Of a DNA stretch of 8,014 bases, positions 1,573 to 6,553 are shown piece after piece. Position numbers and translations under genes: made by a program. The DNA comes from Pseudomonadota bacterium. Lineage in GTDB: Bacteria; Pseudomonadota; Gammaproteobacteria; Burkholderiales; Thiobacillaceae. Where the stretch lies: positions 1-8,014 of the forward strand of contig JAJZRT010000146.1 in assembly GCA_021802595.1 (NCBI GenBank). The letters run 5' to 3'. The notes below the pieces were generated by a model. That model saw only the letters and a list, made by a program, of their open reading frames with translations, was not told the origin of the DNA and searched no databases. How positions within the stretch are numbered: the first letter of the stretch is position 1; each line of letters opens with the position of its first letter.

Positions 1573-3048
1573 TCAGTGTGCCAGCCCGTATTTTTTAAGT
1601 TTGCGATACAGGGTGCGCTCGGAAATACCCAGCTTGTCAGCCACGATCCGGCGATTACCGAACTGTTCCAGGAGCTCCTGGATACTCGCTTCTTCGATCC
1701 GTGCCAGGTTGTGATCCAACCCCCCTTCCGTCTCCCGGACAGCCCTGGGCAGCCTGTCCGTGTTGCGGCGGGACTGCTTCGCGGTGACCGTCTGCGCAGG
1801 CGCACCGGGCCGGTCGGTGCTGCGCCGACCATATCGGGTGATCGAGGGCACCTCCTGCTGAGAATTCGCCTGCACGGCAGCCAGCTCGCCCTGGGTGCAA
1901 TTGCAACCGGGCAAATGCTCGAAGCTGATTTCACACGGGTGAATCACGCCATGCTTGCATCGTGTGGATGCCTTGATCAAGACACTGCGCAGTTCACGAA
2001 TATTGCCCGGATAGTCGTGTGCCACCAGTTTTTCCAGCGCACCCTGGGTAAGCCGGTACACGACGCCAGTTTCCTTGGTGATATGGCTGAGCACCAGTTG
2101 TGCAATGGCCGGGATGTCACCCCGGCGTTCACGCAGTGAAGGAATCACGACCTTGAAACCGGCGATGCGATAGAACAGATCCTGACGGAAAGTTCCCTCC
2201 CGCACCATTTGCGCAAGGTCGCGATTAGTGGCGGCCACCACGCGCACATCGCATTTATGGGTGGTTTCCGATCCCAGGCGACGGTATTCGCCGCTATCCA
2301 GCACACGCAGCAACTTGCCTTGCATGGACAGCGGCAGATCGCCGATCTCGTCCATGAACAGGGTGCCTTTGTCAGCCAGTTCGAACAGACCGCGCTTGGC
2401 GCGCTGACCACCGGTAAACGCGCCCTTCTCGTATCCGAACAACTCGCTTTCGCACAGGCTTTCCGGAATGGCCGCGCAATTGAGTTCCACATAGGGTTTG
2501 CTCGCGCGCGCCGAGTGTTCATGCAGGAAACGGGCGCCAAGCTCCTTCCCCACGCCGCTTTCTCCGTACAACCAGATGGCGGCACGGGTTTTGGCGGCCA
2601 TCGACAGTTCCTCGAAGAAACGCAGGAAGGCGGGGCTCTTGCCCGCCATGCGCATTTCCTCGCAGTTGATATCGAGCCGCGGCGCCAGCCGATGAATCGA
2701 TTCCATCAAATACATCTGGCCGCCAGCGTCGTGCAGCGGATGCGCGCGGATACGGACGTGATCGGGACGATTCTGGAAATCGTAATGGGTATGCAGCACC
2801 TCGCACGGGCCGGCGGTGGCGAAAACCTCCTGATGCGGGCATTGCTCACCGTTCTGGTGACAGGGCACCCGGGAACGGTGCGATACCTCGTGGCATGACT
2901 TGCCGACAATCTGATCCTGCGGAACACCGTACGAATCGCAATAGGCCTTGTTGGCCGCGACAATTTTGTAGTCGCGGTCCACCAGCACCGTGGGATTGTC
3001 CCGCGTCTCCAGCAGCGAATACAGCGGAATGACGATTCTTCTGTCCAC
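1573..3048 (-). CDS. Sigma-54-dependent activator: PAS, AAA+ and Fis-type HTH domains
   Basis: The 491-residue protein is a bacterial enhancer-binding protein that would remodel sigma-54 RNA polymerase using ATP. The order is a PAS domain (about 15-115), an AAA+ domain (about 135-365), a linker, and a Fis-type HTH (about 450-489, GNRRIVADKLGISERTLYRK). The AAA+ domain shows Walker A GESGVGKE (162-169), Walker B LFMDEIGDL (230-238), arginine-finger region FRQDLFYRI (287-295) and YPGNIREL (346-353). The sigma-54 contact loop reads GAFTGG (209-214) instead of GAFTGA. There is no receiver domain, so the signal is probably sensed directly. Cysteines cluster in the PAS domain (C52, C63, C70, C82) and after the AAA+ domain (C364, C372, C382, C384). 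The start is GTG at 3048-3046, fixed by GGAGGAGGG just upstream. It diverges from the PEP-CTERM operon, its likely target. Confidence 0.93.
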   Translation of the reverse strand: MDRRIVIPLYSLLETRDNPTVLVDRDYKIVAANKAYCDSYGVPQDQIVGKSCHEVSHRSRVPCHQNGEQCPHQEVFATAGPCEVLHTHYDFQNRPDHVRIRAHPLHDAGGQMYLMESIHRLAPRLDINCEEMRMAGKSPAFLRFFEELSMAAKTRAAIWLYGESGVGKELGARFLHEHSARASKPYVELNCAAIPESLCESELFGYEKGAFTGGQRAKRGLFELADKGTLFMDEIGDLPLSMQGKLLRVLDSGEYRRLGSETTHKCDVRVVAATNRDLAQMVREGTFRQDLFYRIAGFKVVIPSLRERRGDIPAIAQLVLSHITKETGVVYRLTQGALEKLVAHDYPGNIRELRSVLIKASTRCKHGVIHPCEISFEHLPGCNCTQGELAAVQANSQQEVPSITRYGRRSTDRPGAPAQTVTAKQSRRNTDRLPRAVRETEGGLDHNLARIEEASIQELLEQFGNRRIVADKLGISERTLYRKLKKYGLAH

Positions 3049-3100
3049 CTTACCCTCCTCCAGCCCCGTTTGTAGTTGGTTTGGCCTGGTCTACCGTGCC

Positions 3101-3113
3101 TGACAAATCGTCA
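3101..3113. promoter_or_regulatory. Candidate activator-binding palindrome 1
   Basis: TGAC-AAATC-GTCA, with arms extending to CTGAC/GTCAG at 3100-3114. Its centre is about -175 from the predicted sigma-54 start site. It shares the GAC-N5-GTCA layout with sites 2 and 3. Assignment to the adjacent activator is inferred from position and symmetry. Confidence 0.5.
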
Positions 3114-3146
3114 GCAACAGCCTTGCGTCATTTTGTCGCACCCGCT

Positions 3147-3159
3147 TGACAACATGTCA
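3147..3159. promoter_or_regulatory. Candidate activator-binding palindrome 2
   Basis: TGACA-ACA-TGTCA has perfect 5-bp arms and is the most symmetrical of the three related sites. Its centre is about -129 from the predicted sigma-54 start site, within the usual range for upstream activator sites. Binding by the neighbouring Fis-type HTH protein is inferred. Confidence 0.55.
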
Positions 3160-3178
3160 GGTCGGACGGCGATGGGGA

Positions 3179-5757: not shown

Positions 5758-5770
5758 TCCGTGCGTCGTT

Positions 5771-5792
5771 CCGCCAGCCTGCCGGCTGGCGG
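5771..5792 (+). other. Strong intercistronic hairpin before the third operon gene
   Basis: CCGCCAGCC and GGCTGGCGG form a perfect 9-bp GC-rich stem with the 4-nt loop TGCC, starting 13 bases after the propeller gene's stop. No T run follows, so it is unlikely to be a full intrinsic terminator. It may protect the upstream mRNA or lower expression of the third gene. Its right arm overlaps the repeat at 5786-5811. Confidence 0.6.
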
Positions 5793-5811
5793 ATAACCGG
5801 ACCAATCGGCT
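5786..5811 (+). repeat. Second copy of the imperfect direct repeat
   Basis: It aligns with 3287-3311 in the operon leader at 22 of 26 columns. It lies between the hairpin and the start of the third gene, so both copies occupy untranslated sequence ahead of a PEP-CTERM gene. I saw no equally good copy before the propeller gene. Confidence 0.45.
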
Positions 5812-5839
5812 ATCCAATCATCGAGACGGGAATACCCTC

Positions 5840-6553
5840 ATGAACCTTGATCACAAACATCTGCTCGGCAGCGTGTGCTCAGCCGTCCTCATGGCTGCCA
5901 GTGGTGGCGTCATGGCTCACTCCGGCGCCGGCATGCTGCCGCTGAATCTCAGCATCGGCCCCTCCATGGTGGCTGAATATCTCTCGATTCCACCCGAGGG
6001 CGACTATCTGCTCCCCCACGTCAACATCGACAACATTTCCGGCGTGGCCTGGCAGGGCATGATCATCCAGATACTCACCTGGAATGAATTCACTTCCCGA
6101 TACGAACTGTCACCTGCCGGCGATGGCGTTTCTTTCGGCGAATCCACCACCACGGGCGATGCGGACTGGGCAACCCAGGGCGGCGCGGCAGGCTTGCATG
6201 TCAAGCTCAACGGCATCTACCAGTGCAACGGTGTGGATGCCACAAGCTACTGTCTTGGAGACGGAGTGACGGGCCAGATATCCAATCCTGGTTCCTGGAC
6301 CTGGACCCGAGAACTGAACCCTGACACCTATACCGTCAGCTTCGACCCCGACAAACTGCTCGTCCAGTCCGGCCAGAACCTGCATGTCGGCGGCTACGAA
6401 ATCGAGTACGGCAGCCAGTCCAGTATTTGGGGATTGCGCTTCACAGCCATTGCCGCCGTGCCGGAAGCGTCCACTTGGGCGCAAATGGCTGCGGGACTTG
6501 CGCTCACCGGCGGAATGGTGCGCTTGCGGCGGCGCCGCTGCGCGATGGCCTAG
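5840..6553 (+). CDS. PEP-CTERM protein of unknown fold
   Basis: A 237-residue exported protein. The signal peptide covers about residues 1-26 (LLGSVCSAVLMAASGGVMA), so the mature chain would begin HSGAGML. The middle (about 40-205) is rich in alternating polar and hydrophobic residues, with many Trp and Tyr, and suggests a beta-sandwich; I recognise no named domain. C129 and C138 could form a disulfide. The tail VPEASTWAQMAAGLALTGG (207-225) plus RLRRRRCAMA is a PEP-CTERM exosortase signal. The frame is open from 5738, but that start precedes the propeller stop and reads through the hairpin without a signal peptide. ATG 5840 gives a proper one, with only a weak GGGA upstream. The gene probably belongs to the sigma-54 operon. 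Its stop shares CTAG with the convergent gene. Confidence 0.85.
   Translation: MNLDHKHLLGSVCSAVLMAASGGVMAHSGAGMLPLNLSIGPSMVAEYLSIPPEGDYLLPHVNIDNISGVAWQGMIIQILTWNEFTSRYELSPAGDGVSFGESTTTGDADWATQGGAAGLHVKLNGIYQCNGVDATSYCLGDGVTGQISNPGSWTWTRELNPDTYTVSFDPDKLLVQSGQNLHVGGYEIEYGSQSSIWGLRFTAIAAVPEASTWAQMAAGLALTGGMVRLRRRRCAMA

Follow-up and report, generated by a model that had tools for sequence, protein, structure and literature searches.

Why does a sigma-54 activator gene stand with a divergent operon of exported proteins between conserved genes of a Thiobacillaceae bacterium, and what might the set be for? The stretch of DNA analysed, called the window throughout, comprises 8,014 nucleotides (contig JAJZRT010000146.1 of assembly GCA_021802595.1, positions 1 to 8,014), and its central part carries four genes that we treat as one module: the activator gene actR and the genes for three exported proteins, P1, P2 and P3. 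We lean, with some reserve, towards reading them as a sulfane-sulfur-induced module of surface and secreted proteins that has its home at a type II secretion locus. The regulation of the module is well supported; what we say of its chemistry we infer.

The module fills a gap that is closed in related genomes

Pfam searches and an AlphaFold2 model bore out the layout of the original prediction, a sigma-54 activator gene and a divergent operon of two PEP-CTERM proteins around a secreted beta-propeller, with all genes at the positions claimed. ActR is encoded at 1573 to 3048 on the minus strand, and P1 (3405 to 4028), P2 (4123 to 5757) and P3 (5840 to 6553) on the plus strand. For P3 the start at 5840 was chosen as the likely one, the longest open reading frame beginning at 5738 and overlapping P2, and its stop overlaps that of the neighbouring protease gene. 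Comparison with empty sites and alignment of the junctions with 6 loci placed the inserted block at about 1531 to 6549, between the 3' ends of an EI24/CysZ gene (796 to 1530, plus strand, PF07264) and a putative metalloprotease gene (6550 to 7350, minus strand), both of which lie outside it. The protease carries an HELLHTLG stretch, yet its Pfam and NCBIfam matches are weak.

The site was compared across 117 Thiobacillaceae genomes, the family of the Thiobacillus genome G001. The protease gene was found in 53 of them (best identity 91%) and 30 of these loci were inspected, 29 of which extend beyond the gene (L116 stops at the contig edge). EI24 followed the protease gene directly, the 3' ends of the two facing each other no more than about 90 bp apart, in 29/29 testable loci, and the block predicted to be missing between mogA/EI24 and the protease gene in relatives was missing from each. 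Because this gap is closed in all of them, the block is an insertion. G001 carries the module elsewhere, and at its protease locus (L149) mogA abuts the protease gene with neither EI24 nor the module between them. The description of the surroundings as conserved held for the EI24-protease pair and failed for darP, which adjoins the protease gene in 6/30 loci only.

No direct or inverted match of at least 9 bp was found between the two 240-bp edge stretches and no mobility or recombinase gene among the 8 window genes scanned, in agreement with the original prediction. A self-mobile element, be it a transposon, an integrative element or an integron cassette, was rejected, as neither a recombinase nor terminal repeats were found. 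Identity at fourfold sites between the window and its closest full counterpart, a Thiobacillus metagenome-assembled genome (MAG) locus, L001, was 0.52-0.60 for the module genes as compared to 0.73 for mogA and 0.65 for the protease gene. The module was thus more diverged than both core genes compared, and a recent transfer between the two lineages was rejected. The proposal that the module is transferable stood as a change of place and fell as a recent transfer from an L001-like lineage.

The proposed composition shift is real but mild. The four hand-counted 60-base lines were exact (55, 50, 70 and 75% GC) and exaggerated it, as whole-gene GC was 59.6-63.9% in the block vs 63.8-67.9% in the flanks. 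GC at third codon positions was lower across the block (0.71 in the activator, 0.735 in P3 and 0.80 in P1 and P2, against 0.82 to about 0.87 in mogA, EI24, the protease gene and darP), but the codon usage of P2 was ordinary.

ActR resembles FisR and faces a sigma-54 promoter with its own upstream sites

ActR was matched to PAS_4, Sigma54_activat (PF00158, 222.6 bits) and HTH_8 (PF02954, 36.7 bits), giving a PAS domain, an AAA+ domain and a Fis-type helix-turn-helix. Its PAS cysteines C52, C63 and C70, spaced by 11 and 7 residues, were invariant in 13/13 aligned rows, the window included. In a homologue from Cupriavidus metallidurans (39.6% identity across the whole protein) the cysteines fall exactly on positions 53, 64 and 71, the last of which we take to be a sensing residue in FisR. 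ActR shares with Cupriavidus FisR the N-terminal regulatory domain, the AAA+ and Fis-type domains, the cysteine spacing and a divergent sigma-54 target; unlike FisR, which acts on sqr-pdo, its putative targets are exported surface proteins and possibly, in relatives, type II secretion genes. Published work on Cupriavidus FisR, a sensor of sulfane sulfur, describes a C53-C64 tetrasulfide whose formation is followed by sigma-54 transcription of sulfide-oxidizing genes (PMC8614764, PMC8469610).

At four loci (L144, L145, L146 and L150) paralogues of ActR were divergent from sulfide:quinone reductase (SQR)-like genes, with a sigma-54 site in 3/4 and a palindrome of the kind described below in 2/4, one of them with a mismatch. 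The SQR identity was profile-tested at L144 and L146, where the type III SQR profile matched at E 1e-31 and 6e-31, far below the model's cut-off, and L145 and L150 carry close copies. These neighbours belong to the paralogues only and not to ActR itself. Sulfane sulfur is our best guess for the signal of ActR, because its cysteines match those of FisR and its paralogues are linked to SQR-like genes, and we consider FisR-like regulation of the module probable.

The interval between actR and P1 contained three TGACA-N3-TGTCA palindromes (at most 1 mismatch), recovered by palindrome scan as upstream activator-type sites at 3100 to 3114 (CTGACAAATCGTCAG), 3146 to 3160 (TTGACAACATGTCAG) and 3178 to 3192 (AAGACACAGTGTCAG), and one sigma-54 promoter facing P1, TGGCACGTCTGTTGCT at 3256 to 3271 on the plus strand, whose -24/-12 elements have 0 mismatches to TGGCACN5TTGCW. 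The promoter aligned in L001 and was also found in a more diverged module locus, L050, a single one facing P1 in each. Palindromes numbered 3 in the window, 4 in L001 and 3 in L050, vs means of 0.01-0.02 in custom shuffles (500 per region), and 0/500 shuffles reached as many. The distance from the last palindrome to the promoter was 64 bp in the window, 64 in L001 and 66 in L050.

An exact palindrome combined with the promoter occurred in 16/117 genomes and 0 times with the reversed control. In G001 and G089 the composite sites were the module promoters, before the P1-P2 operon; in G091 the site preceded a distant P2 copy, in G048 it lay between an ActR paralogue and a divergent SQR-like gene and in G071 before an RND efflux gene that shares its contig with a P2 copy some 8 kb away. 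When one palindrome mismatch was allowed, sites appeared before the P2 copy of G071 and before the window's P1, whose composite belongs to this class. Similar sites thus precede four other Thiobacillaceae propeller genes and an SQR-like gene.

Composite sites were also seen before C1-carrier genes (L191-L198, L200, L204 and L205), which we named by eye and take to be of the H4MPT type; in these 11 Thiobacillaceae genomes they may mark a sigma-54 regulon of formaldehyde oxidation.

The module resembles the PrsK/PrsR system of PEP-CTERM and exosortase genes in its PEP-CTERM proteins, its sigma-54 promoter and the exosortase found in 9/9 genomes searched. It differs in that its activator has a PAS instead of a receiver domain, no kinase gene adjoins it, its upstream site is another one and its targets form an operon instead of single genes. 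The published PrsR motif spans 17 nt and ends in TTTACA. This hexamer (TTTACA/TGTAAA, the only part of the motif tested) was not present at 3049-3404 and PrsR control of the operon was rejected on this ground.

The module recurs at a type II secretion locus

A scan of genome contigs returned 178 relatives of P2, 80 of which were kept for the study of their loci; gene calls there came from a custom GC-frame script and are approximate. All four genes were found together again in L001 with their order kept (identity 79% for actR, 79% for P1, 89% for P2 and 75% for P3), as the predicted co-occurrence required. L050, from the Thiobacillus MAG G089, holds a diverged version with actR (85%, partial at the contig end), P1 (36%) and P2 (34%), and P3 was not present in it. 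A P2 match was found in 5/117 Thiobacillaceae genomes and a strong one in 2, bearing out the description of the module as lineage-specific.

Both loci lead into type II secretion genes. Downstream of P3 in L001 come gspG, gspF and then the contig end, and in L050 the same two genes come after a longer island that encodes one protein each of the CCP_MauG, CARDB and PEP-CTERM types. Orthologues of actR in G091 (72%), G072 (68%) and G088 (57%) are divergent from the same gsp operon (L141, L142 and L143), whose T2SSG, T2SSF, T2SSE and Secretin members were confirmed by Pfam at L141. In G080 a broken stretch of P3 (L175:994-1235) remains about 250 bp before gspG, 77% identical over 60 residues with a further 52% over 29 residues in another frame. 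gspG itself was found in 92/117 genomes at E <=1e-30, in several types, 35 of them with at least 79% identity; the gsp operon is therefore the common part and the module the rare part. These loci are most simply read as meaning that the cassette belongs to the gsp locus, where it has at times been lost, and that the window's copy stands at a new place.

Two of these loci carry further exported proteins. In the L050 island (L050:3610-10071) a metalloprotease-family protein with a PEP-type tail is encoded between gspG and gspF. At L143:2269-8688 large exported RTX-tailed phosphatase and nuclease-like proteins are encoded, together with PEP-CTERM-like ones, beside actR and the gsp operon.

Parts of the module were also seen at other loci. 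In Methylobacter (L002) the gene after a P2 of 60% identity encodes a remote relative of P3 (21-26% identity) that has the same mature N-terminal His. In a Thiotrichaceae locus (L021) P2 is flanked on both sides by a P1-like gene, and in a Pseudomonadota MAG (L024:1961-5240) a convergent ActR-type gene of 39.5% identity adjoins a distant P2, which is itself preceded by a sigma-54 match. To judge by the equal lengths of the matched contigs, P2 and P3 probably occur together on four metagenome contigs. The P3 family counted 25 proteins in all. The Methylobacter locus also carries, 2.3 kb before its P2/P3 pair, a gene for a seven-times multi-haem cytochrome (PF13447, L002:6118-8816), presumably of the hydroxylamine-oxidoreductase type.

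Plasmid or viral carriage of the module was rejected: P2 was found in a single plasmid record (Nonomuraea, 29.8% identity, 11.85 Mb record), and 98 viral-contig stretches that matched the P3 pattern encoded 0 relatives. Among the titles and abstracts listed in searches of open-access papers on PEP-CTERM with beta-propeller, sigma-54 and exosortase, with type II secretion and sigma-54, or with sulfane sulfur, FisR or polysulfide, none described a module of this kind.

P2 is a conserved propeller and P3 has a predicted N-terminal histidine

P2 is an exported protein with no sorting tail. Its AlphaFold2 model (predicted local distance difference test 91.9, predicted template modelling score 0.90) has strands that fit seven blades, and no Pfam family matched above cut-off. 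Over 188 aligned rows H156, N171, R252, C259, C304, D375, H377, D392 and R393 were invariant, among others, and H93 (185), H487 (186), H531 (185) and D462 (187) nearly so. The innermost strands of blades 1, 2, 3, 6 and 7 begin with H531, H93, H156, H377 and D462, so that, by the top-face topology of propeller loops, these axis residues surround one channel mouth. L147 and L148, the most remote copies, keep the four axis His and D462. Near L148, which belongs to G091, PCuAC and an MbnB/TglH/ChrH-type gene were found (L148:6712-9126), and the neighbouring small Cys-rich open reading frame resembles a bufferin.

Foldseek and VIA-align matched the model to YVTN and lactonase propellers. P2 is unlike the YncE/YVTN and lactonase types in its lack of a Pfam match above cut-off, its long insertions and its distinct conserved residues. 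Thiocyanate dehydrogenase and AztD were matched by Foldseek only and were not among the 50 best VIA-align rows. Like P2, thiocyanate dehydrogenase, a copper enzyme with trinuclear copper ligands, is exported and folds as a propeller of seven blades (Foldseek E about 1e-9 to 1e-8), and P2 has polar and His residues on the axis; the likeness is one of fold, with 8-10% identity, a template modelling score of 0.34-0.38 to the model and no profile match to P2 at E <=10.

P3 was modelled as an exported beta-sandwich. Its PEP-CTERM tail scored 14.6 bits, under the Pfam cut-off of 20.7, and in the family alignment 12/13 members matched PEP-CTERM at E <=10 (best 3e-07). The predicted mature N-terminal His, His27, directly follows an A/V/T-x-A cleavage motif in 19/19 sequences with an intact N-terminus, and H60 (20/20), H120 and H182 (both 21/21) are conserved. 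P3 is in this like N-terminal-histidine metalloproteins (YcnI/DUF1775, DUF4198 and others), which have a signal peptide ending A|H and further conserved His, and a beta-sandwich with a C-terminal helix may be a further likeness. The evidence for the fold is weak, and none of 13 P3 members matched DUF1775 at E <=10, in a search whose HMMER filters drop most matches above 0.1. The tails of the family read VPEA in 13/21, VPLPA or VPVPA in 7/21 and were truncated in 1.

P1 is of a common PEP-CTERM type, the FxDxF subfamily, with matches to PF07589 (34.1 bits, cut-off 20.7) and NF038126 (57.3 bits, cut-off 50) and a weak PPC domain just under cut-off. Exosortase is needed for PEP-CTERM proteins, and the 9/9 genomes in which it was found are host or related genomes other than the window's own; 1/14 control genomes matched.

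Proposed function and alternative readings

We propose that the cassette is a unit of four genes whose regulator has its own regulon, at a site that is empty in relatives. By analogy with FisR, sulfane sulfur (polysulfide or persulfide) would cross-link C52 and C63 of the ActR PAS domain, and ActR would then bind the TGACA-N3-TGTCA sites and drive RpoN transcription from TGGCACGTCTGTTGC, where the cis-signature is observed. P1 and P3 would be tethered by the exosortase tail, and P2, a predicted soluble propeller, may leave through the type II secretion system to which the cassette is linked in relatives. P2 probably holds a metal at its axis His/Asp ring, with copper as a first guess, and P3 may hold another at its N-terminal histidine; overall we give a metal in P2 or P3 even chances. 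As the likeliest role we see reactions of a reduced sulfur compound at the cell surface, or the handling of metals in the presence of sulfide, triggered by a rise in polysulfide; the presence in the module of an enzyme for a sulfur compound we regard as doubtful. In the window's genome the cassette would have moved from the secretion locus or been gained separately from it. The function, undescribed in the original prediction, can be narrowed in two respects: the regulator is FisR-like and linked to sulfur, and the home of the module is a type II secretion locus.

Three other explanations were weighed. The three exported proteins might be structural surface or exopolysaccharide-associated proteins of a matrix or biofilm, with no catalytic role, adding one set to the many PEP-CTERM proteins of the lineage. 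We judge this unlikely, since TTTACA is missing from the intergenic region, the activator, unlike PrsR, carries PAS in place of a receiver domain, and the invariant His, Asp, Arg and Asn of P2 crowd one face of the propeller, unlike a plain scaffold. P2 and P3 might instead serve in metal (copper) capture or resistance, binding copper outside the cell while the PAS cysteines answer metal or sulfide-metal stress, a possibility that we rate a little higher and still as unlikely. At 82 P2 loci MauG and CusB were each counted 3 times in near flanks vs 0 in far flanks, CusA 3 vs 4 and RND 4 vs 3, and the near counts are inflated by self-hits because the seeds came from the same loci. Strong linkage of P2 to copper systems was rejected, CusA and RND being as common far as near. 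The copper explanation is also opposed by the SQR-like genes that adjoin the regulator paralogues, and neither the window nor the 10 kb of L001 showed a metal transporter. Finally, the module could be ancestral at the EI24-protease site and lost in every other lineage, not inserted. The low fourfold-site identity of the module genes marks them as old in both the window and L001, and the P3 fragment of L175 indicates that loss does happen; against this stand the gap closed in all testable relatives, the mogA-protease junction of G001 and the remaining copies found, intact or broken, which are all at the gsp locus, and we consider this history very improbable.

A number of observations count against the sulfane-sulfur module that we favour. 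On the side of its regulation, 11/16 composite sites lie before the C1-carrier genes, which means that the palindrome does not mark sulfur genes alone; the SQR-linked loci L146 and L150 have the promoter but no palindrome; and before gspG no palindrome was found in the ActR-orthologue loci of G091 and G088, and one palindrome with no promoter match in that of G072. FisR of Acinetobacter baumannii has none of the sensing cysteines (PMC7315123), and the family therefore need not sense one signal. On the side of the proteins, L147 and L148 differ at N171, D392 and H487 and leave R252 and N255 unaligned, and the matches of P2 to solved metalloproteins are weak and at the level of the propeller: against PDB sequences a single-sequence search gave E 0.36 or worse, and the P2 profile gave hydrazine synthase beta as its best match (E 0.0027) and cd1 nitrite reductase at E 1.4. 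P3 had one chance match to PDB sequences (E 3.7). Metal-system neighbours of the propeller are few, with CusA and RND not enriched near it. The fifth propeller match in the family (G075) is weak, at E 9e-4, and no P1-, P3- or ActR-like neighbour was seen at 75/80 P2 loci. The P2 family is also wide, reaching cyanobacteria, Nitrospira, Solirubrobacter and other groups, so that what its members have in common may be something other than sulfur.

Carried to its furthest, the favoured reading would make P2 and P3 two new exported metalloprotein families that work together: a propeller enzyme with a His/Asp ring, acting on an extracellular reduced sulfur species, and an N-terminal-histidine partner loading or tethering its metal. 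Polysulfide would induce both by way of a FisR-type activator, and a dedicated type II secretion system would export them, its divergent promoter region being a slot for swappable cargo. We offer this version as speculation and hold it to be unlikely as a whole.

For many PEP-CTERM proteins neither a trigger nor a job is known. In the present set they are joined by a regulator with a predictable signal, sulfane sulfur, by a clean promoter and by two partner families whose putative metal sites can be put to the test. In the Thiobacillaceae, the type II secretion loci emerge as possible sites for the exchange of exported cargo controlled by sigma-54.

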